A stretch of DNA of 41,320 nucleotides, from positions 172,133 through 213,452 of the forward strand of contig NZ_JALBVB010000055.1 of assembly GCF_022669155.1 (NCBI RefSeq), given 5' to 3'. How positions within the stretch are numbered: position 1 is the stretch's first letter; each line of letters starts with the position of its first letter. Below, piece after piece: positions 1,895 through 38,604 of this stretch. This DNA comes from Kineococcus sp. TRM81007 (GTDB taxonomy: Bacteria; Actinomycetota; Actinomycetes; Actinomycetales; Kineococcaceae). The position numbers were made by a program, and so were the translations under genes. Under the pieces are notes generated by a model. It did not search any database and had not been told where the DNA came from. It worked only from the letters and a program-made list of their open reading frames with translations.

Positions 1895-1922
1895 CATCGG
1901 CAGCCGCGGTCCCCGCCTTGAG
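1895..1922 (-). promoter_or_regulatory. FliA/WhiG (sigma28)-type promoter, site 1
   Basis: On the minus strand CTCAAG is followed by 15 nt and then GCCGATG. It lies about 50 nt upstream of the ATG at 1843. WhiG/FliA-type promoters of actinomycetes have a GCCGATAA-like -10 with a spacing of about 15 nt. Four further copies of this signature lie in front of other genes in the window. Confidence 0.6.
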
Positions 1923-1971
1923 CGCCCGGTCCCGGCGGGCGCCCCGGCGTTCGTCGCCGTAGGTTCAGCGG

Positions 1972-2925
1972 GTGACCCGGAGCGTGACCGTCCTGGCGCC
2001 GTCCCCCACCCTGCGCGTCCTCGTGGAGCCCACGACGGACGGCCGGGTGGAGATCCACCTGCACCCCGGCGGCCAGGGCGTGTGGGTGGCCCGGATGGCC
2101 GCGCGCCTGCACGCGCGGGTGCGGCTGTGCCTGCCCCTGGGCGGCGAGGCCGGCACCGCGATGGAGGCGCTGCTGACCGAGGAGGGCCTGGAGCCGCGCG
2201 TCGTGCGGACGGTGGGCGCGACCGCCGCGGCGGTGCTGGACCACCGCGGCCACGAGGGTGAGACCGACGCGGAGCAGGCCGAGCGGGTCGCGGAGTCGTC
2301 CTCGCGCCTGACCCGCCACGAGGTCGACGACCTGTGCACCACCGTCGTCACGTCCGCCCTCGACAGCGAGGTGCTGCTGCTGACCGGCCCGGACCGCGAC
2401 GAGGTGCTGCCGGCGGACGTGTTCCGGCGGCTGGCCGCGGACGCGCGCGGGCAGGGCACCACTGTGGTGGCGGACCTGTCGGGGGCGGCGCTGGAGCACG
2501 CGCTGGCCGGCGGCGTGGACCTGCTGAAGGTCGCCCACGACGAGCTGCCCGGCGTGGAGGACGGCGACGGCGAGGCCGAGGCGGAGGACGTGCCGGAGCT
2601 GCTGCGCCGCGCCCGGCGGCTGCGGGAGCGCGGTGCGGGCACGGTGCTGGTGACGCGGGCCGCGCAGCCGCCGCTGGTGGTGACCGCCTCGGGTGCGCAC
2701 CGCCTGGACGTGCCGAGCTTCACGGCGGTGCAGTTCCGCGGGGCGGGCGACTCGATGAGCGGGGCCGCCGCGGCGTGCCTGGCGAACGGCGCGGACGAGC
2801 TGTCGGCGGTCCGCACGGCCGCCGCGGCCGGCGCCGTGAACGTCACCCGGCAGGGTTACGGCACGGGGCACGCCGAAGCGGTGGAGGCCGTCGCGCGGCG
2901 CGTCGAGGTCCACCGCCTCGACTGA
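1972..2925 (+). CDS. PfkB-family carbohydrate kinase (1-phosphofructokinase-like)
   Basis: 317 aa, starting at GTG 1972 with only a weak AGG upstream. The protein has the ribokinase/PfkB layout. An N-terminal substrate-binding GGQGVWVARMAARL resembles the family GGKGxNVA motif, a central ADLSG/LLKVAHDEL segment matches the region where 1-phosphofructokinases read NxxE, and a C-terminal FRGAGDSMSGAAAA provides the anion hole and catalytic Asp. It would phosphorylate a sugar or sugar phosphate with ATP in the cytosol. The usual GGKG lysine is Q here and the NxxE glutamate motif is altered, so substrate and activity are uncertain. The gene stands alone and is divergent from the small repeat protein. 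Confidence 0.8.
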   Translation: MTRSVTVLAPSPTLRVLVEPTTDGRVEIHLHPGGQGVWVARMAARLHARVRLCLPLGGEAGTAMEALLTEEGLEPRVVRTVGATAAAVLDHRGHEGETDAEQAERVAESSSRLTRHEVDDLCTTVVTSALDSEVLLLTGPDRDEVLPADVFRRLAADARGQGTTVVADLSGAALEHALAGGVDLLKVAHDELPGVEDGDGEAEAEDVPELLRRARRLRERGAGTVLVTRAAQPPLVVTASGAHRLDVPSFTAVQFRGAGDSMSGAAAACLANGADELSAVRTAAAAGAVNVTRQGYGTGHAEAVEAVARRVEVHRLD

Positions 2926-2975
2926 CCCCCGCGGGGCTCGCCCCTCCTGCGCGGCAGCGCCGGCCGCGGCGCCCG
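2926..2975. terminator. Intergenic hairpins between convergent genes
   Basis: The 60-bp gap between the convergent stops holds CCCCGCGGGG (2927-2936) and a 5-bp stem GCGCC/GGCGC (2957-2961 and 2968-2972). No U-tract is visible, so it is at best a GC-type bidirectional terminator. Confidence 0.35.
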
Positions 2976-2985
2976 GGACGGGCCC

Positions 2986-5268
2986 TCAGGGCAGTCGCGC
3001 GGTGGCCGGGGTGCCGCGGGGGTCGAGGCGGTCCAGCAGCGTCACCAGCTCCGCGGCGGGCACGGGGCGCCCGTGCAGCCACCCCTGCGTCTCGTCCACG
3101 CCGAGGGAGCGCAGCAGGTGGAGGGTCTCCTCGTCCTCGACGCCCTCGGCGAGCAGCCGCATCCCGAGGCTGTGCGCGAGGTCGGCGGTGCCCGCGACGA
3201 TGGCGGCGGTGCGGGGGTCGTGCGCGACGCGCGCGGTGAAGACGCGGTCCAGCTTCAGCTCGGCCGCGGGCAGGTCCCGCAGGTAGGCGAGGCTGGAGTA
3301 GCCGGTGCCGTAGTCGTCGATGCTGATGCCGGCCCCGACGGCCAGCAGCTCGGCGATCGTGCGGCGGCTGCGCTCGGGGTCGCGCATGAGGGTCGTCTCG
3401 GTGATCTCCACCACGAGCGCACCCGGGTCCAGGCCCGCGGCCGAGGCCGTCCCGCGCACGAGGTCCGGCAGGGCGGGGTCCAGCAGGTCGCCGGCGGCGA
3501 CGTTCACGGCGACGCGCAGGGGCCGGCCGGCGTCGTGCCAGCGCACCGCGTCGGCGACGGCACGGCGCAGCACCACCTCGGTGATGGCGCCCGTCAGGCC
3601 GCGCTCCTCCGCCAGTCCCAGGAAGGCTCCCGGCAGCAGCAGCCCGCGCCGCGGGTGCTGCCAGCGCACCAGCGCCTCCACGCCGACGACGGCGCCGGTC
3701 CGGACGTCGACCTGCGGCTGGTAGCGGGTGACGAGCTGCCCGGCGGCGATGCCGGTGCGCAGCTCCTCGAGCAGCTGCAGCCGCTCCCGCGCGGAGCGGT
3801 CCGCGGCCTCGTCGTAGACGGCGACGCCGCCGCCGGCGCGCTTGGCGACGTACATGGCCGCGTCCGCCTGCCGCAGCAGCTCCGCGTCCCCGCCGGGTTC
3901 AGCCCCGTCGGCCGGGGGCACGGCCCCGGCCGTGGCGACGCCGATGCTGGCGCCGACGTGCACGGCCAGCCCGCCCACGGTGAACGGCTCGGTGAGCGCG
4001 GTGAGCAGGTCGTCCGCGACGCGCCGCGACGCACCGGTGCCCGCGCCGGGCAGGACGAGCGCGAACTCGTCCCCGCCCAGCCTCGTCAGAAGCGCCTCGT
4101 GGGGCAGGCGCGCGGTCAGCCGCGCGGCGACGGCCCGCAGCAGGTCGTCACCGCGGTGGTGGCCGAGGGTGTCGTTGACCTCCTTGAACCGGTCGAGGTC
4201 CAGCAGCAGCAGACCGGTCGCCCGACCACCGGGGCGCGCCAGCCGCTGGAAGAGGGCGCGGCGGTTGGCCAGCCCGGTGAGGTCGTCGGTGACCGCCTGC
4301 CGGTCGCTGCCCAGCAGCCGGGTCAGCTCCGCGAAGGCCAGCAGCACCTTGACCGTGACGCCGCCGACGGCCGAGAACGTCAGGACGACCGCGGCCGCGG
4401 GCAGGGGGCGCCACTGGTCCGCGACCAGCAGCGCGAGGCTGCCGAGGAGGACCCCGACGGGCGCCATCAGCAGCGGCCAGCCCTCCGCGTGCAGGCGCGG
4501 CAGCCGGGGCGCCGGCTGCCGGGCGGCGAGCACCAGCAGGGCGCCCGCGCACAACCGGGCCACGTCCACCGCGACGGACACGGGGGTCCCCACGACGACG
4601 GGACCGGCGGCGCCGGCCAGGCGCAGCAGGTCGGTGACGTCGGCGGCGGCGAGGACGGTGAAGGCGGCGGCGACCAGCGGCAGGCGCGCGTCGGTGCGCC
4701 GGCCCAGCAGCGAGCAGGTGGTCAGCGCGTACACCGCCATGAGCACGTCGAGGGACGGGCGCGCCACCGCGGCGGCGATCGTGGCCGGCCCCATCCCCGT
4801 GGCCCGGTGCAGCGGCTCGAGGAACAGCGCCAGGCACGCGGCGGCCAGCAGCAGCACCGCCAGGGAGCCGTCGAGCCAGGGGCTGCGCACCCGGTGCAGC
4901 CGCCGGCGCAGCAGAGCGACCTGGCCGGCGTAGAAGAGGGGGTAGCCGAGGAGGGTGGCGAGGACGAGCGGCGCGTTGCGCTCGAGCACCGCCGGCTCGA
5001 CGAGGGGGCCGCCCGCGGAGGCGTACAGCGCCAGGCGGCCCAGGACCAGCACGGCGGTGCCGGCCGCGAACAGGCCCCAGACGGCGCGGTCGGCGCCGGA
5101 GCGCGCGGCACCGGTGACGAGGGCGGCCACCACCGCGAGCCACAGCAGGCCCTGCAGCGCGGCGGCGGCCGCGGCGGTGGCCGGGTTCGCGGCCAGGGCG
5201 GCCGACGCGGCGGTCCCCAGCGCGAACGCGGCGGCGGGCAGGGCCGCCGGGCGGCGCACGCCCCTCAC
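2986..5268 (-). CDS. Membrane-bound GGDEF-EAL c-di-GMP enzyme
   Basis: 760 aa. The first ~320 residues are hydrophobic with about eight to ten membrane segments and no recognised sensor family. GGDEF follows (DDLTGLANRR, LDLDRFKEVNDTLGHH, RLGGDEF at about 398-402) with intact metal and substrate residues. No RxxD inhibitory site precedes it. The EAL domain (EAL at 531-533) keeps the E, ITET, DDYGTGYSS, KLDR, AEGVE and QGW motifs expected of an active phosphodiesterase; the family NxS motif reads NVA. It could make or break c-di-GMP at the membrane. Its GTG start overlaps the TGA of the upstream GGDEF gene (GTGA, 5265-5268), implying translational coupling. Confidence 0.92.
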   Translation of the reverse strand: MRGVRRPAALPAAAFALGTAASAALAANPATAAAAAALQGLLWLAVVAALVTGAARSGADRAVWGLFAAGTAVLVLGRLALYASAGGPLVEPAVLERNAPLVLATLLGYPLFYAGQVALLRRRLHRVRSPWLDGSLAVLLLAAACLALFLEPLHRATGMGPATIAAAVARPSLDVLMAVYALTTCSLLGRRTDARLPLVAAAFTVLAAADVTDLLRLAGAAGPVVVGTPVSVAVDVARLCAGALLVLAARQPAPRLPRLHAEGWPLLMAPVGVLLGSLALLVADQWRPLPAAAVVLTFSAVGGVTVKVLLAFAELTRLLGSDRQAVTDDLTGLANRRALFQRLARPGGRATGLLLLDLDRFKEVNDTLGHHRGDDLLRAVAARLTARLPHEALLTRLGGDEFALVLPGAGTGASRRVADDLLTALTEPFTVGGLAVHVGASIGVATAGAVPPADGAEPGGDAELLRQADAAMYVAKRAGGGVAVYDEAADRSARERLQLLEELRTGIAAGQLVTRYQPQVDVRTGAVVGVEALVRWQHPRRGLLLPGAFLGLAEERGLTGAITEVVLRRAVADAVRWHDAGRPLRVAVNVAAGDLLDPALPDLVRGTASAAGLDPGALVVEITETTLMRDPERSRRTIAELLAVGAGISIDDYGTGYSSLAYLRDLPAAELKLDRVFTARVAHDPRTAAIVAGTADLAHSLGMRLLAEGVEDEETLHLLRSLGVDETQGWLHGRPVPAAELVTLLDRLDPRGTPATARLP

Positions 5269-6506
5269 GGGATCCGCACCCCCCGGCGGCCGTGGGCCCG
5301 GGACCGGGTGGCGGGGGTGGACGCGTCGGCCCCGGCGACGACGGCGTCACCGCCGCGCGCCTTGGCGGCGTACATGGCCTCGTCGGCGCGCCGCACCGCC
5401 TCCGCGGGGTCGTCCCCGGCGCGCAGCAGCGTGGAACCCACGCTGGCGGTGACGCCGTGGGCCGCGCCGGCGCGCGCGATCCCCGCGCGCACCGCCTCGG
5501 CCAGCGCGGCCGCGGCGACCGCGTCGGGGGTGCGGCACAGCACGGCGAACTCGTCGCCGCCGAGGCGGGCCACCGAGTCCGCGCCGCACGCGACGCGCCG
5601 CACGGCCTCGGCGACGCGCACCAGCAGGTCGTCGCCGGCGGCGTGGCCGGCGGTGTCGTTGACGGCCTTGAACCCGTCGAGGTCCACCAGGTGCAGCGAG
5701 GACACCGGGTCGGGGTGGTCGATGCCCACCTGCAGGCGGTGCAGGAAGGCGCGGCGGTTCAGGCAGCCGGTGAGGGGGTCGGTGTCGGCCAGGGCAGCGA
5801 GCTCGCGACGCACGGTCCGGTGCTGCTCGCGCAGCTCCTGCCGGCCGAGGGCGGCCCAGGTGGCGACCAGCACTGCGGTGGCGAGCATGCCCACGGGGAC
5901 GACGACGCGATCGGCGGGCACCTGCGTGGCCAGGGCGGTGACGAGGTCGGCGAGCACCGCCGTCCCGCCCAGGACGGCGACCGCGCCCGGCGGGTAGGCC
6001 ACCGCCACGAAGCCCACGGACAGGAAGTACATGAGCCGCACGGGGGTGTCCGTCGTGGAGCCCGCGGGGCCGTCCAGGACGGTGGCGACCACGGTGATCA
6101 CCAAGCTCGCCAGCGTCCAGGTGTACGGGAAGAGCCTCCCGCCGCGGGCGCGGGCCAGGCGGTCCACGGGCAGCAGCAGGACCAGCAGGACGCAGGAGGT
6201 CGCCACGGCGTCGAAGGCGGTGAGGGCCACGCGGTGGGGGTGGAGGGGCTGCACCCAGGCGGAGGCGGTGACGAGGACCCCGCAGATCACGGAGAGCACC
6301 ACGCCGGTGCGGGTGTGCCGGCGCCAGAAGGCGACCTCAGCGGGGTCGGCGGCCAGCGGGCGCAGCAGTTCCTCGCGGGCGCGGTGCACCGCCGCGCGGG
6401 GACCCCGCGGGTCTGCGCTGCTCCGGCCGCCCTCTTCCACCGGGGGGTTGTCGACACCGGCGGCGAGGTGCTTCAGCGTCGGGGCACGTTGCCGACCACG
6501 GTTCAT
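5265..6506 (-). CDS. Membrane diguanylate cyclase (GGDEF)
   Basis: 413 aa from ATG 6506. An upstream in-frame start at 6557 lies inside the csp terminator and is rejected. After a ~60-residue cytosolic segment there are about six membrane helices, a short linker (RQELREQHRTVRRELAAL) and a C-terminal GGDEF domain: TDPLTGCLNRRAF, LVDLDGFKAVNDTAGH and RLGGDEF at about 316-320. These residues predict active synthesis of c-di-GMP from two GTP. No RxxD I-site is seen in the usual place, so product inhibition is not indicated. It overlaps the following GGDEF-EAL gene by four bases, suggesting synthesis and turnover enzymes made as a pair. Confidence 0.92.
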   Translation of the reverse strand: MNRGRQRAPTLKHLAAGVDNPPVEEGGRSSADPRGPRAAVHRAREELLRPLAADPAEVAFWRRHTRTGVVLSVICGVLVTASAWVQPLHPHRVALTAFDAVATSCVLLVLLLPVDRLARARGGRLFPYTWTLASLVITVVATVLDGPAGSTTDTPVRLMYFLSVGFVAVAYPPGAVAVLGGTAVLADLVTALATQVPADRVVVPVGMLATAVLVATWAALGRQELREQHRTVRRELAALADTDPLTGCLNRRAFLHRLQVGIDHPDPVSSLHLVDLDGFKAVNDTAGHAAGDDLLVRVAEAVRRVACGADSVARLGGDEFAVLCRTPDAVAAAALAEAVRAGIARAGAAHGVTASVGSTLLRAGDDPAEAVRRADEAMYAAKARGGDAVVAGADASTPATRSRAHGRRGVRIP

Positions 6507-6555
6507 CCCGTCGGAGCAGCGCACCGGCGTGCTGACGGGGACAGGCCCCGGACGC

Positions 6556-6595
6556 ACCGCGGCCCCCGCTCCCAGGAGGGAGCGGGGGCCGCGGT
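6556..6595 (-). terminator. Strong terminator of the cold-shock gene
   Basis: A perfect 18-bp inverted repeat (6556-6573 with 6578-6595) encloses the loop AGGA, 9 bp after the csp stop codon. It is the longest perfect stem in the window and also separates csp from the downstream GGDEF operon. Confidence 0.9.
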
Positions 6596-6604
6596 GAGGT
6601 TCGA

Positions 6605-6808
6605 TCAGAGGCGGGTGACGCCGCTCGCCTGGGGGCCCTTGGCGCCCTGCGTCACGGTGTACTCGACGCGGTCGTTCTCGTCGAGGCTGCGGAAGCCGCT
6701 GCCGTTGATCTCGCTGAAGTGGACGAACACGTCAGCCGAGCCGTCCTCGGGAGCGATGAAGCCGAAGCCCTTCTCGCCGTTGAACCACTTGACGGTGCCC
6801 TGAGCCAT
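6605..6808 (-). CDS. csp: Cold-shock protein (CspA family)
   Basis: 67 aa, the standard length of a single cold-shock domain. RNP1 (KGFGFI) and RNP2 (VFVHF) are intact, following the family opening [10 protein letters not shown]. It binds single-stranded RNA and DNA in the cytosol and acts as an RNA chaperone. AGGAGG (6813-6818) lies 4 nt before the ATG. The leader contains a small hairpin whose 5' arm could also pair with this ribosome-binding site. A strong terminator follows, so the gene is monocistronic. Confidence 0.97.
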
Positions 6809-6812
6809 GAGG

Positions 6813-6844
6813 CCTCCTGGGTGTAGACGCTCCTGATGAGGAGC
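6813..6844 (-). promoter_or_regulatory. csp leader hairpin with competing anti-Shine-Dalgarno pairing
   Basis: In transcript sense GCUCCU-CAUC-AGGAGC forms a perfect 6-bp hairpin (6829-6844). Ten bases later comes the AGGAGG ribosome-binding site (6813-6818). The CUCCU arm can pair with either AGGAG, so two exclusive folds are possible, one hiding and one exposing the ribosome-binding site. Known cspA leaders use temperature-dependent refolding; that this one does is inference. Confidence 0.45.
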
Positions 6845-8237: not shown

Positions 8238-8249
8238 CAGGGTGCCCGA

Positions 8250-10510: not shown

Positions 10511-11275
10511 TCAGCCGCAGTACTCGTACGTGTCGACGGTCACGCCCGTGCACGGCGTCCAGTAGAGGGTGCCGCCGGTGAAGTACTGCACGACGACCCC
10601 CGGGTAGTACACCTCGCTGGTGGTCGGGTAGCCCAGGCGCCCGCGCTCGTACCCCTGGGCGGCCCAGTGCGGGTAGAACGCGCCGCTGATCGCGTACGGC
10701 TCGTCCGAGGACGCCTGCTGGTAGATCGCTCCGTGCTGGAACCGCTGGAACGTCCCGCCGGCGGCGGCGGGGGCCGGTTCGGAGGCGGGGTAACCGAGGG
10801 GCCCCTGCTCCCAGCGCAGCGAGTCCCACAGCGTGTAGAAGCGGCCCCGCACCTGGTGGGCGCCGGTGGTGGGCGAGTAGTAGAGCGTCCCGCCCTCGTA
10901 CTGCTGCATGACGCCGCCGCGCAGCCCGGTCTCGTTGGACGCGGGGAAACCGAGCGGGCCGTTCTCCCAGCCCTGCGCGCCCCAGTAGCCGTAGAAGGCG
11001 CCGCCGACGGTGTGGGCGCCGGTGCCGGGGCTCCAGTAGATCGCCTGCCGGGTGAAGTCGTTGTACGCGCCCGTGCGCAGCGGGGTGGGCGTCTCGCTGT
11101 TCAGCGGCTCGCCCGGGGCCCCGCCCAGCCGCAGCCACTCCTGCTCGATGGCGCCGCCCACCCACTGGGGGCCGTTCGGGCCGGGGTACACGGCCGCCTG
11201 CGCCGCGGCCGGTGCCGCCAGCACCGCCAGCGCGGCGAGCGCCGCCGCGGCCTTCGTCCTGGTCCTCGTCCGCAC
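10511..11275 (-). CDS. Secreted LGFP-repeat protein
   Basis: 254 aa from GTG 11275, chosen because GGAGGG lies 9 nt upstream; GTG 11284 directly abuts that site. An Arg/Thr/Lys-rich N-terminus, an Ala/Leu core and AQA cleavage region form a Sec signal peptide. About four LGFP-type repeats of ~50 residues follow (GWENGPLGFPAS, RWEQGPLGYPAS, GYERGRLGYPTT), each with a YW- or YY-containing strand pair. LGFP repeats are thought to anchor proteins to the actinobacterial envelope. No enzymatic domain is attached. Two cysteines near the C-terminus (CTGVTVDTYEYC) could form a disulfide. Two larger proteins in the window use the same repeats. Confidence 0.85.
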   Translation of the reverse strand: MRTRTRTKAAAALAALAVLAAPAAAQAAVYPGPNGPQWVGGAIEQEWLRLGGAPGEPLNSETPTPLRTGAYNDFTRQAIYWSPGTGAHTVGGAFYGYWGAQGWENGPLGFPASNETGLRGGVMQQYEGGTLYYSPTTGAHQVRGRFYTLWDSLRWEQGPLGYPASEPAPAAAGGTFQRFQHGAIYQQASSDEPYAISGAFYPHWAAQGYERGRLGYPTTSEVYYPGVVVQYFTGGTLYWTPCTGVTVDTYEYCG

Positions 11276-18250: not shown

Positions 18251-19690
18251 TCAGGAGGGGACGTCCCGGTCCGGCGCGGGGGCCGCGGGGCCGGGGTCCC
18301 GCCGGTCGCGGGCCACGTGCGGGCCGGTACCGGCGCGCTTGGCGCGGTACATCGCCTCGTCGGCGGCGCGCAGCAGGCCGGTGACGTCGGTGGCGTGCCG
18401 GGGGGCGTGGGCGATGCCGATGCTGGCGCCGGTGCGCACGGTGCGGCCCTCGATCCCGTAGGGCTCCCCCAGCCGCTCGTGGACGGCGCGGGCGAGGCCG
18501 GCGGCGTCCTCGCGGACGGGGCCGGTCAGGGTGACGGCGAGCTCGTCGCCGCCCAGGCGCGCGGCCGTCGCGCCCGCGGGCAGGAGGGCGAGCAGCCGCG
18601 CGGCCACCTGCTGGAGCAGGACGTCGCCGGCGTGGTGGCCGAGGGTGTCGTTGACCCGCTTGAAGCCGTCGAGGTCGATGAGCAGCAGCGCCACCCTGCC
18701 GTCGCCGGTGACGGGGTCGAGGGCGTCGCCGAGGGCACCCAGGAGGGCGGCCCGGTTGGGCAGGCCGGTGAGCTGGTCGTGGAACGCGCGGTGCTCCAGC
18801 TGGTGCAGGTGGGCCCGTTCCAGCTCCCGCAGGCGGGCGTTGTCGACGACCACGGCGCCCTGCAGGGCGATGCGGTGGGCCAGGACGCGGTCGGCCGCGG
18901 TCCAGGTGCGGCGGCGGGTGACGTCCCCGCAGACGGCCGTGCCGACCAGGCCCTCGGCGCTCATCAGCGGCAGCGACACGTAGGAGCACACCCCGAGGGT
19001 CTGCACGAACCCCCCGGGGCGCACGGGGACCACGGCGACGTCGTCGACGAGTTCGGGGCCGCCGGCGCTGACGGCGCGCCACCAGGCCGGCGAGTCGCGG
19101 GCCAGGCGACCCAGCAGGCCCGCCGCCAGCCGCTGCTCCAGCCCCTCGGGCAGCCCGACGCCGAGGACGTGGGTGACGCGGGTGTCGGGGTCCACGAGCA
19201 TCACGGCGGCGCGCTCGGTGCCCAGGACGTCGGCGGTGACGGCGACGAGGAGGCGCCCGGCGGCCTCCACGCTGCCCGCCCGCGCGCCCTCCTCGAACAG
19301 GCGCCGCACGGCGTCGGTGACGCGGTGCAGCTCGGCCTGCTCGCGGGCGGCGGCCACGTCGCGCAGCGCCACGGCGAGGTGGTGGCCGGCCGCGGCACCC
19401 ACGACCGGGTCCACGGCGGACGGATCGCCGCCGTGCAGGTGCAGCAGCCCCAGCTCGGCGCCGCCGTGCCGCAGCGGGAACACCGCGCACGCGCCCGCCA
19501 CGGGACCGGGCTCACCGGCCCGGGCGACGACCACCAGGTCGCCCCCCTCGTGGGCGAGCACCTCGGCGCGGAGCACGCCCGAGCGCCGCGCCAGGGCGGT
19601 GTGCACGAGGTCCAGCGTGCGCTGGAGGGGGGCGCCCTCCTGCTGCGCCAGCTGCACGAGCTGCACCGGCAGGGCGTCCTGCGGGTCCAC
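18251..19690 (-). CDS. GAF-GGDEF protein with GGDEL active-site variant
   Basis: 479 aa from GTG 19690. TTG 19708 and GTG 19669 are alternatives, and none has a clear ribosome-binding site. It is soluble with no membrane helix. Two GAF-like regions cover about 10-270 (LPLMSAEGLVGTAVCGDV is typical GAF), then a GGDEF domain with DQLTGLPNRAAL, LLIDLDGFKRVNDTLGHH and ARLGGDELAV (380-384). The last signature residue is L instead of F; metal-binding residues are kept, so activity is possible but not certain. A FliA/WhiG-type promoter lies upstream (19773-19800) and a strong hairpin lies between it and the start. It would link an unknown GAF ligand to c-di-GMP. Confidence 0.88.
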   Translation of the reverse strand: MDPQDALPVQLVQLAQQEGAPLQRTLDLVHTALARRSGVLRAEVLAHEGGDLVVVARAGEPGPVAGACAVFPLRHGGAELGLLHLHGGDPSAVDPVVGAAAGHHLAVALRDVAAAREQAELHRVTDAVRRLFEEGARAGSVEAAGRLLVAVTADVLGTERAAVMLVDPDTRVTHVLGVGLPEGLEQRLAAGLLGRLARDSPAWWRAVSAGGPELVDDVAVVPVRPGGFVQTLGVCSYVSLPLMSAEGLVGTAVCGDVTRRRTWTAADRVLAHRIALQGAVVVDNARLRELERAHLHQLEHRAFHDQLTGLPNRAALLGALGDALDPVTGDGRVALLLIDLDGFKRVNDTLGHHAGDVLLQQVAARLLALLPAGATAARLGGDELAVTLTGPVREDAAGLARAVHERLGEPYGIEGRTVRTGASIGIAHAPRHATDVTGLLRAADEAMYRAKRAGTGPHVARDRRDPGPAAPAPDRDVPS

Positions 19691-19772: not shown

Positions 19773-19800
19773 CATCGGCCCGCGCCGCGCCGCGCTTGAG
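19773..19800 (-). promoter_or_regulatory. FliA/WhiG (sigma28)-type promoter, site 2
   Basis: Minus-strand CTCAAG, 15 nt, GCCGATG. It begins 11 bp after the stop of the CWB2 gene and would drive the GAF-GGDEF gene with a leader of about 75 nt. Confidence 0.6.
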
Positions 19801-19811: not shown

Positions 19812-20774
19812 TCAGGACGGGCGGGCTGCACCGACGTGGAGGCGGTCACCGGCGCCGCGGCGGTCCAGTTCGGCGCGCGTGGCGGCGGGGGTGGTGCCGG
19901 CGCCGGTGAGCAGCAGCGGTGCGGCGAGGTCCGCGGCGAGGGGACCGGCGGCCAGGGCGTCGGCGAAACCCGACCCGACGGCGAGGACGGCGGTGCCGGT
20001 GCCGGGGAAGAACCTCCGGCCGACCTCGGCGGCGGTGGCGTAGCGGTCGGCGCCAGCGATCCGCTCGAACACGGCGTCCCCGTAGCCGAGGGCGCGGATC
20101 TCGTCGAGCACGGCGCCGGAGACCGCGTCCTGCCCGCCGAGGACGACGAACCGGCTGGGCCGCAGCGGCAGGTTCGTCTCCTGCGCGGACAGCGCGGACC
20201 GGACGGCTCCGGGCAGCGAGTCCCGGCCGACGAGCAGGACGGGGGCCCCCAGGCTCCCGGCGGCCGCGGCCCCGGCCAGGGCGTCCGGGTAGTTCTCGCC
20301 GGTGGCGAGGAACACCGTGCCCGGGTCGTCGAAGAGGGTGCGGGCGACGCGCACGGCGGTGGCGTAGCGGTCGGGGCCGTCGACGCGCACGACCGCGTGC
20401 CCGAGGCGCTGGAGCTCCGCCTCCACGGCGGTGCCCACCGACGACGTCCCCCCGACGAGGTACACGGCGGTGGGGTCGAGGTTCGCGAGCTCGTCGAGGG
20501 TGGCCCGCGGCACCTCGTCCCGGCCGGTGAGCAGCACGCGGCTGCCGTCGGCGGCCGCGGCGGCGCTCGCGGCGAGCGCGTCGGGGAAGTCCTCACCGGT
20601 CGCCAGGTACACGGGGGCGTAGCGGTCGCCGACGAACGCCCGGGACACCGCGGCGGCGGTGGCGTAGCGGTCCGGGCCGGAGATCACCACGTCGGCCGCC
20701 TGCGCCGGTGCGGCGGTGCCGAGGGCGAGGGCGGCGGTGAGCGCGAGGACCGGCAGGGCGGGGCGGTGGCGCAC
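19812..20774 (-). CDS. Secreted cell-wall-binding repeat 2 (CWB2) protein
   Basis: 320 aa from GTG 20774, with AGGAA 6 nt upstream; a GTG at 20819 lacks a site. A short Sec signal peptide (VRHRPALPVLALTAAL, cleavage near AQA-AD) is followed by three CWB2 repeats, each opening with GxDRYATA (GPDRYATAAAV, GPDRYATAVRV, GADRYATAAEV). Each carries the xxATGENxPDALA and VYLVGG-type strands. In Firmicutes three CWB2 repeats form a trimeric module that binds anionic wall polymers. Here the protein consists of that module alone, so it may be a wall decoration or an adaptor. The related 33838-35487 and 35742-38204 genes add extra domains. Confidence 0.9.
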   Translation of the reverse strand: MRHRPALPVLALTAALALGTAAPAQAADVVISGPDRYATAAAVSRAFVGDRYAPVYLATGEDFPDALAASAAAAADGSRVLLTGRDEVPRATLDELANLDPTAVYLVGGTSSVGTAVEAELQRLGHAVVRVDGPDRYATAVRVARTLFDDPGTVFLATGENYPDALAGAAAAGSLGAPVLLVGRDSLPGAVRSALSAQETNLPLRPSRFVVLGGQDAVSGAVLDEIRALGYGDAVFERIAGADRYATAAEVGRRFFPGTGTAVLAVGSGFADALAAGPLAADLAAPLLLTGAGTTPAATRAELDRRGAGDRLHVGAARPS

Positions 20775-20888: not shown

Positions 20889-23258
20889 TCAGAGGCGGGT
20901 GACCCGCCCGGTGGCGGCGTTCCACACCAGGGAACCGCCCTCGTAGTCCTGGCGCACCCCGCCGGGCACGGGGTACTCCCCGGTGCGGGGGTAGCCGAGG
21001 GTGCCGCGTTCCCAGCCCTGGCCGGCGTGGTGCCCGGCGAAGGCGCCGTGGACGGCGTGGGCGCCCAGGGTGGGCGTCCAGTACACGAGGCCGCCCTGGA
21101 ACCGCTGCACCCGCCCGCCGTCGCGGACGGCGAACTCCTCCCCCGCCGGGTAGCCCAGCGCGGAACCCTCCCACCCGGCCCGGCCCCACGCGTCGCGGAT
21201 CGCGCCGGTGACCACCTGCGCGCCCGTGGCGGGCGAGAAGTAGATCGAACCGCGCTCGAAGTGGTTGAAGGCGCCACCGCGGATCGCCGTCTCGCCGGTG
21301 GTGGGGTACCCCAGCGCGCCGTTCTCCCAGGACCCGGCGGCGTACCGGCCCAGGATCGCGCCGCGGACCTCGTGGGCACCCAGAGCGGGTGCCCAGTACA
21401 CGAGACCGCCCTGGAACCGCTGCACCCGCCCGCCGTCGCGGACGGCGAACTCCTCCCCCGCCGGGTACCCCAGCGCGGAACCCTCCCAGCCGGCCCGGCC
21501 CCACGCGTCGCGGATCGCGCCCTTGACCACCTGCGCGCCCGTGGCGGGCGACCAGTAGATCGAACCGCGCTCGAAGGGGGCGAACTCCCCGCCGCGCAGG
21601 ACGACCTGGTCGCCGGTGGGGTACCCGAGCTCGGAGCGGGTGGCGCCGTGGCGCACGTACGCGTCGTGGACGGCGCCGCGGACGGTTGCGGCCCGCCCGG
21701 CCGGGCCGGTGTAGGTGACGGACCCGTCGCGGTGGACGACGGGTGCGGGGGCGGTGGTCCGGGTCGGGCTCGCCGAGGGTGCGCGCGTCGGCGCCGTGGT
21801 CGGCGTCGTCGGCTTCGCCGTGGGTTTCGCGGTCGGCGCGGTGGTCGGCGCGGGCGCCGGGGTCGACGGCGGCGCGGGCCTGCTGGTCGCCGTCGGTGCC
21901 GCGGTCGGCACGGGGGTGGCGGTGACCGTCGGGGTCGCCGTGGGGACCGCCGTGGCGGTGGCCGTGGGGGTGGCCGTGGGGGTGGCCGTGGGGGCCGGGG
22001 ACGCGGCCGGCAGCGGCAGGGTCCGCCCGGCGCGCTGCGCGGCCAGTTCGACCGCCCGGTCGGCGCGCACGAGGCCGTGCCCGAAGTGGTCGTCGCGGCC
22101 GGTGGCGCCGAGGTCCTCGGCGGAGGCGACGAGCACCTCCTCGACCTCGTCGGGGGTGAGGGAGCCCGCGACGGCGACGACCGCGGCGGCGACGGCGGCG
22201 ACGTGCGGGGCCGCCATGGAGGTGCCGCTCATGCCCGCGTACCCGGGGTCCCTGCTGTACGTGGAGACGATGCCCTCACCGGGGGCGGCGAGGTCGATCT
22301 GCAGGCCGTGCTGGGAGAAGGCGGCGCGCTGGTCGGTCCGCGTGCTCGCCGACACCCCGATCACACCGGGGTCGGCCGCGGGGTGCAGCACCGGGTTGCC
22401 CTGGGCGCCGGAGTTCCCGGCGGCGGCGACCACGACGACGCCCTTGCCGCGGGCGTACCGGACGGCCTCCTGCACGGCGACGCTGGGGCTGTCCGAGGTC
22501 AGGCTGAGGTTGACGACGTCGGCGCCGTGGTTGGCGGCGTGGGTGATGGCGTCGGCGACGGCGGTCGTGGTGCCGTTCCCGGAGTTCGACAGGGCCTTCA
22601 GCGGCAGGATCCGGACACCGCCGGCCACGCCGTCGACGCCGCCGTTGCCGACGGTGGCGGCGATGGTGCCGGCGACGTGGGTGCCGTGGCCGTTGCCGTC
22701 GGCGCGCTCGGTGCCGGGGTCGGCGGTGAAGTCGGCGCCGGGCAGGACGCCCGGCAGGTCGGGGTGCTCGGCGACGCCGGTGTCGACGACGGCGACGGTG
22801 ACGCCACCGAGGGCGCCGCCGAGCTGCGCGGCGGCCCGCGGGGCGCGGACGCGCGCGGGCCCCCACTGCAGGGGGGTGTGGTCGGTGAGGGTGAACGCCG
22901 CCGGGGCGGTGTCGGCGATGCGCACGGTGCCGGCGGGACCGGCGGCGAGGACGCTGTCGAGGCCGTCGAGCAGGCCGATCACCCCGGCGGCCCCGGCGGC
23001 GTCGCCCGCGCTCACCGTCAGCGCGCGCGGGCCCTCGTCGGTCGCGACGGACACCTCGACGCGGGGGCCGGCGCCGGTGGTGAGCGCCCCGAAGGCGGAC
23101 TCCTGCGCCGCGTCCATCTCCGCCCGCACCGGTGCGGGCAGGACGGCGAGGTCGCCGGCGGCCGAGGCGGTCGCCGTGCCGGCACCGGTGCCGCTCAGCG
23201 CGAGGGAGATCGCCACCGCGGTCAGGACGGCGCGGGGGGCGGGGCGTCGTCGCGTCAC
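20889..23258 (-). CDS. Secreted subtilisin-like protease with C-terminal LGFP repeats
   Basis: 789 aa from GTG 23258. A signal peptide (TRRRPAPRAVLTAVAISLAL, cleavage near ASA) and a ~100-residue propeptide-like region precede an S8 peptidase. Its triad is D159 (AVVDTGV), H194 (GHGTHVAG) and S347 (GTSMAAPH), with AAAGNSG as the oxyanion region. A Pro/Thr/Ala-rich linker (about 425-530) leads to five LGFP repeats, so the protease is probably held at the envelope. Two of these repeats are a recent 315-bp DNA duplication. The -10 of a FliA/WhiG-type promoter ends 8 nt before the GTG, so the mRNA is probably leaderless. It may process surface proteins during motility or development. Confidence 0.93.
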   Translation of the reverse strand: MTRRRPAPRAVLTAVAISLALSGTGAGTATASAAGDLAVLPAPVRAEMDAAQESAFGALTTGAGPRVEVSVATDEGPRALTVSAGDAAGAAGVIGLLDGLDSVLAAGPAGTVRIADTAPAAFTLTDHTPLQWGPARVRAPRAAAQLGGALGGVTVAVVDTGVAEHPDLPGVLPGADFTADPGTERADGNGHGTHVAGTIAATVGNGGVDGVAGGVRILPLKALSNSGNGTTTAVADAITHAANHGADVVNLSLTSDSPSVAVQEAVRYARGKGVVVVAAAGNSGAQGNPVLHPAADPGVIGVSASTRTDQRAAFSQHGLQIDLAAPGEGIVSTYSRDPGYAGMSGTSMAAPHVAAVAAAVVAVAGSLTPDEVEEVLVASAEDLGATGRDDHFGHGLVRADRAVELAAQRAGRTLPLPAASPAPTATPTATPTATATAVPTATPTVTATPVPTAAPTATSRPAPPSTPAPAPTTAPTAKPTAKPTTPTTAPTRAPSASPTRTTAPAPVVHRDGSVTYTGPAGRAATVRGAVHDAYVRHGATRSELGYPTGDQVVLRGGEFAPFERGSIYWSPATGAQVVKGAIRDAWGRAGWEGSALGYPAGEEFAVRDGGRVQRFQGGLVYWAPALGAHEVRGAILGRYAAGSWENGALGYPTTGETAIRGGAFNHFERGSIYFSPATGAQVVTGAIRDAWGRAGWEGSALGYPAGEEFAVRDGGRVQRFQGGLVYWTPTLGAHAVHGAFAGHHAGQGWERGTLGYPRTGEYPVPGGVRQDYEGGSLVWNAATGRVTRL
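21061..21580. repeat. 315-bp internal duplication in the protease LGFP region
   Basis: The stretch around 21085-21265 recurs nearly base for base at 21400-21580. The offset is exactly 315 bp, or 105 codons, which equals two LGFP repeats. Synonymous positions are largely shared, implying recent duplication or gene conversion. Confidence 0.85.
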
Positions 23259-23266
23259 GGCCCCGT

Positions 23267-23293
23267 CATCGGCACGGGGACGCGGGACTTGAG
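23267..23293 (-). promoter_or_regulatory. FliA/WhiG (sigma28)-type promoter, site 3
   Basis: Minus-strand CTCAAG, 14 nt, GCCGATG. The -10 ends 8 nt before the GTG of the subtilisin gene, predicting a leaderless transcript. Confidence 0.55.
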
Positions 23294-25073: not shown

Positions 25074-26591
25074 TCAGTTGAACGGGCGCACCACCGTGGG
25101 GGCGAGGGTCTCCGCGCCCCGCTTCCTCGTGATGTCCACCACCCGCACGACGCCGCGCTGGTTGGGCGACTCGATCATCTTCCCGCCGCCGAGGGCGATG
25201 GCGACGTGCACGATCCGGCCGGTGCTGTCGGAGGTGTAGAAGACGAAGTCGCCGCGCTGCACCTGCGCCAGCGGGAGGTGCCGCAGCCCGCCGTGCGCGT
25301 ACAGCTCCGCGGAGGTGCGGTAGTCGGCCAGCGGGTGCTTGTCCACGGTGACCGGCCGCGGCGACAGGCCCGCGGCGAGCATCGACTGCAGCACCAGGCC
25401 GGAGCAGTCGGTGCCGTAGCCGACGGGCCCGGCGCCGCCCCAGACGTACTCGGTGCCGAGGTACCGGTGAGCGACCTCGATCATCTTCCCCACCCGCTGG
25501 GCGGCGACGGCGTTCGGCGCGACCTCGATGGGGTGCTGCCAGCCGTCCATGCAGAAGTCCTCGGCTATGCCGAGGCGTTCCCAGGTGGTGCGGTCGACGA
25601 CGCCGGTCACGGGCAGGCGCGCGGAACGCTGGAAGTCGTGGATCGCCGTGGTGGTGGTGCCCTTGTTCCACTCCACCTCGGTGCCGGGCAGGCCGAGGCG
25701 GCGCTGCACGAGTTTCACGCGCGAGCCGTTGTAGCCGGTGTCGATCGGCCGGCACGACGGGACCGCGGGGTGCCAGGACGTCGGCCGCAGCCAGGGGCCG
25801 GTGTCGTCGGTGATGGTGACCTCGGTGGTCCCGGTGCCGGCGTCCCAGGTGACGTACCCGCGCTGGAAGTCGCTGCGCTTGCCGCCGGGCACGTCGTGCT
25901 CGTCGGTGACGGGGTAGCCGAGCGCGCCGGACTCCCAGCCGCTCCGACCCCACGCCCCCTGGATGGCGCCGCGCACGACCTTCGCGCCGATGCCCTCCAC
26001 CCAGTAGGCGGTGCCGCCCTGGAAGGTCTGCATCCGGCCGCCGTCGGTGGCGAGCGCCACCTCACCGGTGACGGGGAAACCCAGGTACCCGTTCTCCCAC
26101 CCCTGCGCGGCGAACAGGCCGCCGAACGCGCCGCGCACCTCGTGCGCGCCGAGCGCGGGCGTCCACAGCACCAGCCCGCCCTCGAACCGCTGGACGCGGC
26201 CGCCGTCGCGGACCGTGAACTCCGCGCTGGTGGGGAACCCGAGGGGGCCGTTCTCCCAGCCGGTGCGGGCCCACTCCTCGCGGATGGCGCCGAACACGGG
26301 GTGCGCGCCGGTCCGGGCGGACCAGTAGAACGTGGCGCCCTGGAACACCTGGGCCCGGCCGCCGCGGGCGACGCCGAACTCGGCGCTCACGCACGCGCCC
26401 GCGACGGAGCGCTCGGCGCCCATCGCCCGCCAGCGCGCGCCGATGTCGCCGGAAGGAGCGCAGGTCGCGGCGTGCGCGGGGGTGGACAGGCCGGTGCTCG
26501 CGGGGGCGACCGTTCCGAGCAGGCTCACGGAGAGGGCACCCGCCACCGCCAGCGCGGTGCGGGTGGTCCACCGTCGGGTCACGATCCGCAT
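25074..26591 (-). CDS. Secreted NlpC/P60 peptidoglycan hydrolase with LGFP repeats and a PG-binding domain
   Basis: 505 aa from ATG 26591, with AGGAGGAGG about 7 nt upstream. A signal peptide (RIVTRRWTTRTALAVAGAL, cleavage near AHA) leads to one degenerate and three good LGFP repeats (GWENGPLGFP, GWENGYLGFP, GWESGALGYP). A peptidoglycan_binding_1 domain follows (SRVKLVQRRLG to FQRSARLPVTGVVDRTTWERL). The C-terminal NlpC/P60 domain has Cys396 (GTDCSGLVLQ) and His462 (VHVAIALGGGKMIESP). The family cleaves D-Glu-diamino-acid bonds in peptide stems. The FliA/WhiG-type promoter at 26653-26680 suggests wall opening timed with flagellation or a developmental step. Confidence 0.95.
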   Translation of the reverse strand: MRIVTRRWTTRTALAVAGALSVSLLGTVAPASTGLSTPAHAATCAPSGDIGARWRAMGAERSVAGACVSAEFGVARGGRAQVFQGATFYWSARTGAHPVFGAIREEWARTGWENGPLGFPTSAEFTVRDGGRVQRFEGGLVLWTPALGAHEVRGAFGGLFAAQGWENGYLGFPVTGEVALATDGGRMQTFQGGTAYWVEGIGAKVVRGAIQGAWGRSGWESGALGYPVTDEHDVPGGKRSDFQRGYVTWDAGTGTTEVTITDDTGPWLRPTSWHPAVPSCRPIDTGYNGSRVKLVQRRLGLPGTEVEWNKGTTTTAIHDFQRSARLPVTGVVDRTTWERLGIAEDFCMDGWQHPIEVAPNAVAAQRVGKMIEVAHRYLGTEYVWGGAGPVGYGTDCSGLVLQSMLAAGLSPRPVTVDKHPLADYRTSAELYAHGGLRHLPLAQVQRGDFVFYTSDSTGRIVHVAIALGGGKMIESPNQRGVVRVVDITRKRGAETLAPTVVRPFN

Positions 26592-26652: not shown

Positions 26653-26680
26653 CATCGGCACGCGGGGCGGTCACCTTGAG
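26653..26680 (-). promoter_or_regulatory. FliA/WhiG (sigma28)-type promoter, site 4
   Basis: Minus-strand CTCAAG, 15 nt, GCCGATG, about 60 nt upstream of the ATG of the NlpC/P60-LGFP gene. It starts 13 bp after the hairpin that ends the beta-helix gene. Confidence 0.6.
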
Positions 26681-30806: not shown

Positions 30807-30809
30807 GGG

Positions 30810-33797: not shown

Positions 33798-33830
33798 CCC
33801 GCCGGCCCACCCCTCGGGCGGACCGGCGGG
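33798..33830. terminator. Bidirectional hairpin between GT39-like and CWB2 genes
   Basis: CCCGCCGG (33798-33805) and CCGGCGGG (33823-33830) form a perfect 8-bp stem around a 17-nt loop in the 40-bp gap between convergent stops. Confidence 0.6.
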
Positions 33831-33837
33831 CCGTGGG

Positions 33838-35487: not shown

Positions 35488-35666
35488 GGTGGTCCGTCCG
35501 ACGCGGGGACAGGGGCAGCCGCACCCCGTCGGGACGCGGCGGCACCACAGTGGCACGGGCCGGGTCGGTTCTCCGGTCGTTCTGCGGAGTTCGAGCACCG
35601 AGGTGCGGGGCGTCGGTCCCGGCGGGCACCCGCGAGGTGTTCACCGGCCAGTCGGTGCGGAACGTG

Positions 35667-35704
35667 CGAGAGCCCCGACTCCCTCGCGGGAATCGGGGCT
35701 CTCG
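35667..35704 (-). terminator. Strong terminator of the S-layer-like gene
   Basis: CGAGAGCCCCGA (35667-35678) and TCGGGGCTCTCG (35693-35704) pair perfectly over 12 bp. The loop itself contains TCCC/GGGA, which extends the structure. It lies 37 bp past the stop at 35742. Confidence 0.85.
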
Positions 35705-35741
35705 TCCGTCAGTCAGTCAGCGGACTGGCCGGAACCGCGGA

Positions 35742-38204
35742 TCAGTAGGAGAAGGTCACCGGGGTCGTGATGACGGCGCTGTCGTTGCCCGCGACGTCGG
35801 TGAACGCAGCGGCGTCGGCCGTCACGTTGTACGTGATGTTCGTCGGGGCGTCGTCCAGCGGCTGGGCCAGCGTGAGGGTCCAGACGGTTCCGCTCTCGTT
35901 CCGCTTCGTCGCACCGGAGACGGCGATCTCCAGCCCGGCCTGCGTGGAAGGCGAGACGGTGAACGCGGCGGCGTCCACCGAGGCGACGGCCTCGTTGAAG
36001 GTGACGATGAGCTCGGAGGTGCTGCCGACACCGTTGTCGATGTCGTTCACCGTGACGGTGCTCAGGGTCGCCGCCGTGGTGTCGCCGGTGGCGGTGGCGG
36101 TGGCCGCCGTGCTGGTCGCGGAAGCCTCCCCGTCGACCGTCACGACGACGGTGTAGGAGTAGGTGCCCGCCTCCACCGCGTCGGTGTAGTCCAGCACGGC
36201 GTCCGTGAGGGCGTCCTCGTCGTCGTCCGCGTTCAGCGTGGCGACCGAGGCGTACGTCCCGACCACGTCGTCCGCAGTGCCGAGGGTGGTGTCGGCGCCC
36301 GCGGTGACGGTGGCCCGCGACACGACGACGGTGTCGTCGCTGTCGAGGTCGGCCAGCGCCGGGGTGACCGGCGTGATGTCGAGCGTGACCTGACCGGCGC
36401 CACCGGTCGCGTTGACCGTCGGCTGCCCCGGCGTGTCGTCGACGAGCACGAAGTCGGACGGGAGGTCGGCGTTGGGCTGGTAGCTGGTCCCGGTGCCCAG
36501 GCTGTCGCCCTCGGAGAGCTCCGCCAGGAACGTCGCCTGAGTGACCGCAGTGCCGGCGCTGGCGTCGGCACCGATGTAGTAGCGGTCGTTGGCGTCCAGG
36601 TTGTAGAGGTCGCCAGCGGCGATGACGTAGCCGGCCTCCTTGTCGACGTCGGAGATCGCACCGCCGGTGGCCCCCGCGTCCGCCTCGTCGGGCAGCGTCT
36701 GCACGGCACCGCCGACGCCGAACGCCTCGCTGGGCGCACCGTTGTCGTCGATCTCCAGGCGGGTGTTCGCGCCACCGTCCACGTAGACGACGGGGACGAA
36801 CGACTCGATGGCGGCCGCGTCGGTGGTGACCGTGAACGACACGCCACCCTCAGCGGTCGGAGCGATCCCGCCGACGCTCTGGGCGCCGGTCACGCTGACA
36901 CCGTTGACGACGGTGAGGTCGGCCGCGACGGTCCCGGCGAGGGCCAGACCCGTCGCCGCGTCCTCCTCGAAGGAGACCACGCCGTTGGCGTCCACCGTGA
37001 CGTTGTCGGTGTCCACCAGGGTCACGCGGTACTGGGTGTCGGCGTCGAGCCCGGCGACGCTGTACTGGCGCACCTCGCCGAAGCTGAGCGCGACCGCAGT
37101 GTCCGGGGTGACGGCGAGCGTCTGGTTAGTGGCGGGAGCCTCGACGTCACCCACGCCGGCCTCCGTGACGGCCTGGACGACCTCGTTGCTGACGGCCGCG
37201 GTGCCACCGAAGACGACGCCCGTGGCGAGGGTCCCGGAGTTCTCGGTGAGGTACGTCTCAGCGGGGGCGCCGAGCACGCCGTTGCCCTCGGTGAGCAGCA
37301 GCGGGAACTGCTGGGTGCCCAGCCACTGGGAGCTGGTGAGCGCGTCGGCCGCGTTGGTCGGGTCGGTGGTGTCGCCGCGAGCCACGCCCACCCCGGTGTT
37401 CAGGAAGCCCCACTCGGACACGGCGAGGCGCGCCAGCTCGGCGGCGGTCTCCTGGCCAGTCGCACCGTCGATGCGCTCGTTGACGGTGAACTCGGCGTCG
37501 CGGAGGGCGGTCTCCACGGAGGCCGGCACGGCGGCGGTGCCACCGAGGACGGTCAGGGTGGTGATGCCCGCGGCCTGGACGGCCTCGATCCACGCGTCGT
37601 CCACGGCGCCGGCGACCGGCAGGATCGGGATGTCGTTCGCGTAGGCGATCGGGCCGGCGGCCAGGGCGTCGGCCGGGTTGCCGTAGGCGCGGACGACGAA
37701 GGCCTGCGTGGGGCCCTCCTGCGCGGCGGCGAGCTCGGTGAGCACGTCCAGGGCGGTGGCGACGCGGTCGGCGCCTTCCACGCGCTCCACCGCGTAGGCG
37801 GCGTCGAGGGCCGTGTACTGCTCGGCGCTGACGGCGGCGGTGCCACCGACGACGACGACGTTGTCCACGCCCAGGACGTCGAGGGCGTCCTCGGTGTCCG
37901 CGTTCAGGGAGCCCTGGTCGGTGAGGAGCACGGCGGCGTCCAGCGAGCCGGCGAGCGCCGCGGCCGACAGGGCGTCAGCGGGGCTGTAGGCGTTGACGAG
38001 GACGGCGGTGCTCACGCCCTCGGGGAACGTCTCCTGAGCGATGTTGGCGGCCGTCTCGAAACGGTTGTCACCGAAGACGCGCGCCGGGTCGAAGCCCTCG
38101 GCGGCGACGGCGGAAGAAGAGAACCCGACGGTGGTCAGACCCACGAGAGCCGCGACGCCGGCCCCGATACCACGCCGGCGCAACCGGGAGGTTGCTGCGG
38201 TCAC
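35742..38204 (-). CDS. S-layer-like surface protein: three CWB2 repeats plus adhesin-type domains
   Basis: 820 aa from GTG 38204, with GGAGG 6 nt upstream; TTG 38216 overlaps that site and is rejected. The signal peptide runs to about AVA-AE. Three CWB2 repeats (VFGDNRFETAANI, VEGADRVATALDV, IDGATGQETAAEL) cover about 30-330. The rest is Thr/Val/Asp-rich with Ig-like or Big-type strands (SFTVTTDAAAIESF, YSYTVVVTVDGEA, ELIVTFNEAVASVDAAAF) and ends in TPVTFSY. It is acidic and almost Cys-free, the composition expected of an S-layer subunit. Less extreme wobble GC, a structured leader and a strong terminator suggest an abundant stable transcript. The S-layer role is inferred from domain plan, not proven. 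Confidence 0.85.
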   Translation of the reverse strand: MTAATSRLRRRGIGAGVAALVGLTTVGFSSSAVAAEGFDPARVFGDNRFETAANIAQETFPEGVSTAVLVNAYSPADALSAAALAGSLDAAVLLTDQGSLNADTEDALDVLGVDNVVVVGGTAAVSAEQYTALDAAYAVERVEGADRVATALDVLTELAAAQEGPTQAFVVRAYGNPADALAAGPIAYANDIPILPVAGAVDDAWIEAVQAAGITTLTVLGGTAAVPASVETALRDAEFTVNERIDGATGQETAAELARLAVSEWGFLNTGVGVARGDTTDPTNAADALTSSQWLGTQQFPLLLTEGNGVLGAPAETYLTENSGTLATGVVFGGTAAVSNEVVQAVTEAGVGDVEAPATNQTLAVTPDTAVALSFGEVRQYSVAGLDADTQYRVTLVDTDNVTVDANGVVSFEEDAATGLALAGTVAADLTVVNGVSVTGAQSVGGIAPTAEGGVSFTVTTDAAAIESFVPVVYVDGGANTRLEIDDNGAPSEAFGVGGAVQTLPDEADAGATGGAISDVDKEAGYVIAAGDLYNLDANDRYYIGADASAGTAVTQATFLAELSEGDSLGTGTSYQPNADLPSDFVLVDDTPGQPTVNATGGAGQVTLDITPVTPALADLDSDDTVVVSRATVTAGADTTLGTADDVVGTYASVATLNADDDEDALTDAVLDYTDAVEAGTYSYTVVVTVDGEASATSTAATATATGDTTAATLSTVTVNDIDNGVGSTSELIVTFNEAVASVDAAAFTVSPSTQAGLEIAVSGATKRNESGTVWTLTLAQPLDDAPTNITYNVTADAAAFTDVAGNDSAVITTPVTFSY

Positions 38205-38576
38205 GATTGCCTCCAAGGCAGTTGTGAAGTGATGTTCCCCCCCACGGGGGCCGGCTCAGTGCGAGCCTGCTGCCGCCAGCTCCTCCACTACTCAGCGGAG
38301 TGCCCTGGTGACGCTGTCGAACGTACACGAGAGTCACGATGGCAACACGGTGAGTTATGGGGCTTGTGGGACTCGACCCCGCTGTAACGCATCCGACACA
38401 CGGCGTGACCTGCGCTTTTGCCTTGAACGAGGCTAGATAACAGTTTGGTAACGGGACGCCTCACCCGTCCCGCTGACCCCTCCAGACCCGTACGGCCTAG
38501 TCACACCGGACCGGGTCACCACCCACGCAGGGACCCCCACGCCCGTGACTCCTGTGGGTGATCCCCCACCGGCCCC
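38205..38576 (-). other. Long intergenic region with structured leader of the S-layer-like gene
   Basis: This is the longest non-coding stretch in the window and is less GC-rich than its surroundings. Read towards the S-layer-like gene it has three adjacent hairpins: ACTC-AGCG-GAGT (38290-38301), GGCTC-AGTGC-GAGCC (38253-38267) and CCCCC-CAC-GGGGG (38238-38250). A weak promoter candidate on the minus strand is GTGTTG, 17 nt, TACGTT (38320-38348). No small ORF with a ribosome-binding site and no tRNA were found. Confidence 0.45.
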
Positions 38577-38604
38577 GTCAAGGCCGCGCACCGCGGCGCC
38601 GATG
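38577..38604 (+). promoter_or_regulatory. FliA/WhiG (sigma28)-type promoter, site 5
   Basis: GTCAAG, 15 nt, GCCGATG on the plus strand, differing from the other sites only in the first base of the -35. The -10 ends 8 nt before GTG 38613, predicting a leaderless GGDEF-EAL mRNA, the same distance as at the protease gene. Confidence 0.55.

Follow-up and report, generated by a model that had tools for sequence, protein, structure and literature searches.

The question raised by this locus is what reads a bipartite motif, TCAAG-N14/15-GCCGATG, that recurs in front of unlike genes, and which programme it serves. The window, i.e. the whole stretch of DNA that was analysed, comprises 41,320 nucleotides (C54:172133-213452) of the genome of Kineococcus sp. 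TRM81007 (G000; 4.22-Mb, 60 contigs, 75.6% G+C). An earlier note on this DNA had listed five sites with coordinates and strands; each of them is present letter for letter, and all five are oriented towards a gene. An exact search with spacers of N13-16 allowed revealed exactly these five matches in the window, in line with the remark that there was no further instance, and no match was found in 100 dinucleotide shuffles of the window. The distance to the start codon, given as 8 to about 80 nt, was measured as 9-83 nt (Table 1). Pfam scans agreed with the gene descriptions and gave no match for the VEEP-repeat protein.

Table 1. The five sites of the window and the genes behind them. Transcription starts are predicted; distances (d) are counted from the last base of GCCGATG to the start codon called by our own gene finder.
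Feature	Coordinates	Strand	Spacer	Predicted transcription start	d (nt)	Remarks
Site 1	1895..1921	-	N15	~1886		TCAAG-N15-GCCGATG
Small VEEP-repeat protein gene, 106 aa	1523..1843	-			52	Behind site 1; no Pfam or NCBIfam match
Site 2	19773..19799	-	N15	~19764		
GAF-GGDEF protein gene	18251..19690	-			83	Behind site 2; Pfam
Site 3	23267..23292	-	N14	~23258		FliA-type or ambiguous; predicted start on GTG
Subtilisin (Peptidase_S8) with five LGFP repeats	20889..23258	-			9	Behind site 3; predicted leaderless; Pfam
Site 4	26653..26679	-	N15	~26644		
Hydrolase with LGFP (4), PG_binding_1 and NLPC_P60	25074..26591	-			62	Behind site 4; Pfam
Site 5	38578..38604	+	N15	~38613		Predicted start on GTG
GGDEF-EAL protein gene	38613..40883	+			9	Behind site 5; predicted leaderless; Pfam

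A second GGDEF-EAL gene (2986-5259, minus strand) and a GGDEF gene (5265-6389, minus strand) adjoin in the window with no exact site upstream of either, so the set does not include every such c-di-GMP gene. An LGFP-repeat protein and two CW_binding_2 (CWB2) proteins, also without exact sites, are encoded at 10511-11275, 19812-20774 and 35742-38144 (all minus strand), and the window is thus rich in wall-associated secreted proteins.

A search of the whole genome revealed 26 exact sites, compared with 2 for a reversed-pattern control. Their spacers are N15 in 23 cases and N14 in 3, and none has N13 or N16 though both were allowed. With up to one mismatch 88 sites were detected, against 10 for the control; this search took N15 only, so that N14 sites with one mismatch are undercounted, and at least one of the listed sites was read solely inside fetched stretches. 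Five of the 26 exact sites lie inside the window and a sixth 5.5 kb to its left. Six sites within 44.1 kb correspond to P ~0.0002 in 20,000 random placements, a value that is not unbiased because the sites themselves drew attention to the window. All 11 genomes of the genus contain more exact sites (12-27) than control matches (1-7). The frequency of the motif, for which the earlier note had asked a genome-wide scan, is therefore above background. Twenty-four of the 26 exact sites precede a gene on the same strand, 23 of them within 200 nt of its start by script; the 24th (L012) lies 39 nt before an MCP gene, where a run of N (an assembly gap) joins two frames. The remaining two are found in sense orientation inside genes of the flagellar cluster, fliH and a gene without Pfam match which we take to be flhF. 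Genes were called by a simple codon-bias gene finder, whose starts may be wrong.

A chance or composition effect was ruled out by the ratio of 26:2, by the absence of matches from the 100 shuffles and by the start geometry described below. The broader explanation, in which the motif is such an effect of a genome with 75.6% G+C or else a coding or repeat element and not a promoter, can point to some matches in other families that lie inside conserved genes; the upstream position of 24 of the 26 sites and the retention of the site before the same genes in relatives speak against it too, and we consider it extremely improbable.

Comparison with the sigma-28 consensus, as given in passages of PMC8325347, showed TCAA in place of TAAA in the -35 element, and a -10 element that is near GCCGATAA but has final bases G, not AA. 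The sites thus combine near-consensus -10 and -35 elements, sigma-28 spacing and starts at the right distance, and their assignment to the sigma-28 promoter class is well supported at the sequence level. ATG or GTG trinucleotides, counted independently of the gene finder, occur at offsets 8-9 after GCCGATG in 10 of 23 upstream exact sites of this genome and in 20 of 56 of the genus, compared with 2 of 36 sites that are not upstream. C stands at the ninth base after GCCGATG in only 1 of 79 upstream exact sites. Removal of those with a start codon at 8-9 leaves 49 sites, of which 1 has C there and 44 have A or G. The peak of start codons at 8-9 nt and the near absence of C from the ninth base suggest that transcription probably begins there, about 9 nt past GCCGATG, and that many messages are probably leaderless. 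For the subtilisin-LGFP and GGDEF-EAL genes of the window, leaderless messages would be the simplest reading. At L051:2597-2663 a PAS-GGDEF-EAL gene and, on the other strand, a class-V aminotransferase gene are each preceded by a one-mismatch site; the two sites stand back to back, and the distance to the start codon is 9 nt in both cases.

Pfam scans of the 55 genes downstream of sites with up to one mismatch revealed 15 GGDEF/EAL proteins; GGDEF domains occur in 14 of the 55 targets, compared with 57 GGDEF matches genome-wide. Eight targets belong to chemotaxis (CheB and seven receptors, one of them, at the end of a stretch, recognised by sensor and HAMP domains only), five are flagellar (fliQ, flbD, flhA, flgB, flgN), four are type IV pilus genes (pilin, PilM, PilB-like, PilT-like) and four encode wall or surface hydrolases (amidase, subtilase, subtilisin-LGFP, NlpC/P60-LGFP). 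No class was assigned to the other 19, which include leuC, a GH9 cellulase, two exopolysaccharide-type genes, two LuxR-type response regulators and small unknowns. This list agrees with the suggestion, made from the window, of a programme that links wall opening, surface proteolysis and c-di-GMP control to flagellation, and adds type IV pili and chemotaxis to it; zoospore-like development, suggested along with flagellation, might also be served. WhiG sites of Rubrobacter radiotolerans (-35 TAAA; -10 GCCGATAA) precede type IV pilus and DGC/PDE genes according to passages of PMC8325347, and sites before both kinds of gene were found here as well.

Targets in the relatives were read at 68 sites among those listed. 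Exact sites precede genes for flagellin, pilin, CheB, receptors, subtilase and four amidases, and all three amidases scanned contain LGFP repeats. In one relative (L132), an exact site stands at the same distance of 9 nt before a homologue of the GGDEF-EAL gene of the window (50.6% over 261 aa). The best match to the window gene at this locus (74%) is the neighbouring gene, not the one behind the site; the window gene and the gene behind the site are likely orthologues, which is not certain. A 317-aa protein without Pfam or NCBIfam match (L059:3285-4238, minus strand) has an exact site at 9 nt, and its homologues in two relatives (L111 and L124; 87% and 95% identical) each have an exact site at 9 nt; it is a predicted conserved member of the regulon.

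Several further observations concern single targets. An exact site at L021:1501-1527 lies 34 nt before leuC, a metabolic gene outside the theme of the regulon, and may be a chance match or belong to a shared promoter region. One 27-nt site with one mismatch is identical at C28:85218, C33:1301 and C59:4743, two of which are near contig ends, and the C59 copy precedes an MCP gene; a duplicated gene or an assembly repeat is possible. The 57 GGDEF matches amount to a very large c-di-GMP network for a 4.2-Mb genome.

The genome encodes one WhiG (NF004935, 432.5 bits; cut-off 343), which is matched by the WhiG of structure 6pfj with E 1.3e-114, and one FliA-class sigma factor, whose gene adjoins flagellin. 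The sites could be plain FliA promoters, all read by the flagellar sigma-28, with WhiG otherwise employed and c-di-GMP entering only via the target genes. The position of fliA next to flagellin would suit this explanation, as would the DNA-contact helices, which by eye are common to both sigmas, and the promoter specificity described as shared by FliA and WhiG in passages of PMC8325347. The distribution of sites in 119 genomes of the order, counted against the reversed control, argues otherwise: eight genomes with flagellin but no WhiG showed no enrichment of exact sites (30:27), whereas nine genomes with WhiG but no flagellin had 53:5. Genomes with both (n=34) had 426:97. The 68 genomes with neither were also above the control (215:150), which indicates that the reversed control underestimates the coding background. 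WhiG was scored as present with a TIGR02479 match of at least 240 bits, our own threshold (43 genomes); a 44th genome above the curated cut-off (G112) carries the gene beside flagellin, and this was counted as FliA. The WhiG signal comes mainly from families f1 and f8. Outside these two it is weaker: 18 genomes with WhiG had 129:59, with P 0.008 against the genomes with flagellin but no WhiG, the genomes not being phylogenetically independent.

Individual loci were read for 30 of the 58 listed sites in eight of the genomes with WhiG but no flagellin (G108 was left out). At ten of 27 loci a gene starts no more than 200 nt past the site, which has N15 in every case; PilT-like (9 nt), PilB-like and GGDEF genes are among them. 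The site lies inside a gene at nine loci and elsewhere at eight. None of six N14 sites at the loci read in these genomes precedes a gene. N15 sites before pilus genes in genomes without flagellin, together with the N14 spacers at flagellin sites described below, likewise count against FliA as the reader of all sites, which we regard as unlikely. The FliA/WhiG-type reading of the earlier note thus stands as to promoter class and can be refined: the N15 sites appear to track WhiG rather than FliA. No site was found within 320 nt upstream of whiG or rsiG. In one genome with WhiG but no flagellin (G107), a gene for a 133-aa helical protein (L184:1052-1453, minus strand) has an exact N15 site 48 nt upstream. 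The protein has no Pfam match and looks, by eye, like an RsiG whose motifs have degraded; self-regulation is possible.

The earlier note had proposed a look at flagellar operons. Sites with 0-2 mismatches precede flgB, fliQ, flhA, flbD-motAB, flgN-flgK and fliC in this genome and three genus relatives, except for one flgN site with 3. In these four genomes the best site has N15 before flgB (4/4), flhA (3/3) and fliQ (3/3), and N14, mostly with TCAGG, before flbD (4/4), flgN (4/4, two of them weak or tied) and fliC (5/6). A convincing site before fliS was found in one of the four genomes, and before fliD in none of them. For chosen rows with up to 2 mismatches, the spacer separates 13/13 late from 10/10 early flagellar sites (P 8.7e-7), a count that leaves out a second 2-mismatch N15 site before flbD (G005), shifted fliC readings and the rows before orfX and a GAF-EAL gene. 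Among flagellins of other families (18 of 20 starts read), all eight sites with up to one mismatch have N14, and the best site has at least 2 mismatches in the other 10. TCAGG-N14-GCCGAT was found before flagellin in two genomes without WhiG, and a good N14 site is missing at 6 of the 8 flagellins read in such genomes. Upstream of fliA we found TCAAG-N16-GCCGAGA in three relatives and TCAAG-N15-CCCGAGA here, each 9 nt before the start; with 2-3 mismatches this site scores low, but its position is conserved in all four genomes read. The split between N15 at basal-body and export genes and N14 at flagellin, together with the fliA site, suggests that WhiG (N15) may stand above FliA (N14).

Both sigmas might instead read N14 and N15 alike, with no ordered cascade, and the spacer split would then reflect operon history. 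Such an overlap would account for the exact TCAAG with N14 at window site 3 and before CheB, for TCAGG with N15 at some GGDEF genes, and for the similar DNA-contact helices; it is difficult to reconcile with the separation of early from late flagellar sites, and we judge it distinctly unlikely. Under an assignment of N14 to FliA and N15 to WhiG, window site 3 may be FliA-type.

A candidate link to c-di-GMP is encoded at L130:1123-1716. The 197-aa RsiG found there (PF22802, 8.5e-24, two stretches) carries two intact E(X)3S(X)2R(X)3Q(X)3D motifs in one chain, and its residues 15-193 align with Streptomyces venezuelae RsiG (6pfj, E 3.4e-28). In the order, RsiG was detected above the cut-off in 31 of 119 genomes, all of which have WhiG; matches below the cut-off occur in four further genomes, of which G063 (62% complete) lacks WhiG. 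RsiG was not detected in G010, a genus genome in 700 contigs. According to passages of PMC8325347, RsiG sequesters WhiG at high c-di-GMP in Streptomyces and Rubrobacter, and by analogy the twin-motif RsiG points to c-di-GMP control of WhiG here. A 2026 paper (PMC13232838) describes the Streptomyces phosphodiesterase RmdB as keeping RsiG off WhiG; the many GGDEF/EAL targets found here could thus feed back on the RsiG-WhiG switch.

We therefore propose, with a probability of roughly 0.7, that the five sites are sigma-28-class promoters of one conserved motility regulon, in which c-di-GMP and RsiG gate WhiG (N15), which in turn feeds FliA (N14). At high c-di-GMP, the twin-motif RsiG would hold WhiG inactive, as extrapolated from Streptomyces and Rubrobacter. 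A drop in c-di-GMP would let WhiG read CTCAAG-N15-GCCGA[T/A]G, with transcription beginning about 9 nt downstream and often at the start codon. Its targets would be type IV pilus genes, the operons for the flagellar basal body and export, the genes for chemotaxis receptors and, as feedback, for many GGDEF/EAL enzymes, those for LGFP, amidase and subtilisin hydrolases of wall or surface and, probably, fliA. The N14 sites that precede flagellin, flbD-motAB and flgN-flgK, typically TCAGG-N14-GCCGATG, would next be read by FliA, and the hydrolases may free motile cells from clusters or matrix. A generalisation to motile simple actinobacteria, to which we give even odds, would make WhiG their motility master, gated by c-di-GMP via twin-motif RsiG; a spacer-sorted cascade of WhiG and FliA (15 vs 14 nt) would be linked by a leaderless fliA, and the same WhiG pulse would make LGFP-anchored wall hydrolases that free motile cells from a sessile cluster.

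The regulon suggests how simple motile actinobacteria may switch motility on, and how two sigma factors of the same family may divide work in one cell. Searches of the open-access literature for RsiG, WhiG, c-di-GMP and flagella detected PMC8325347 and three reviews only; Kineococcus, zoospore and c-di-GMP together gave no match. The parts are of known kinds. Judged from listings, abstracts and passages of this open-access subset, no paper places flagella, pili, chemotaxis and wall hydrolases in a single regulon under RsiG-WhiG, probably followed by FliA. The promoter sequence, predicted starts, target list and candidate c-di-GMP sensor make the question directly testable.

Among known systems, SigD of Bacillus subtilis and FliA of Escherichia coli are held by FlgM. 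As proposed for Kineococcus, a sigma-28 there unites motility with chemotaxis and with some remodelling of the cell wall (passages of PMC4255298); FlgM is reported absent from these actinobacteria in passages of PMC4255298 and PMC2587704. Closer to the present case is the (RsiG)2-(c-di-GMP)2-WhiG system of Rubrobacter radiotolerans, which, in passages of PMC8325347, likewise has flagellar-type sites before pilus and DGC/PDE genes, an encoded RsiG and a proposed feedback. Its RsiG is described there as single-motif and dimeric, whereas the Kineococcus protein is twin-motif; its reported targets are pili and DGC/PDE, whereas flagellar, chemotaxis and wall-hydrolase genes and a separate FliA are added here; and the -10 element here ends in GCCGATG, unlike the Rubrobacter sites. 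With Streptomyces venezuelae, the genome shares clear homologues of WhiG and of the twin-motif RsiG with both c-di-GMP motifs (structure 6pfj, by sequence); in contrast to Kineococcus, RsiG-WhiG there governs sporulation in a non-motile mycelium (passages of PMC8325347 and PMC13232838). In Actinoplanes missouriensis, zoospore flagella and type IV pili are both under WhiG-like flagellar sigmas, as proposed here (passages of PMC8325347 and PMC13293333), but RsiG is described as missing (passages of PMC8325347). The Kineococcus regulon would bridge three published cases: Rubrobacter with pili and c-di-GMP enzymes, Actinoplanes with pili and flagella in the absence of RsiG, and Streptomyces with sporulation.
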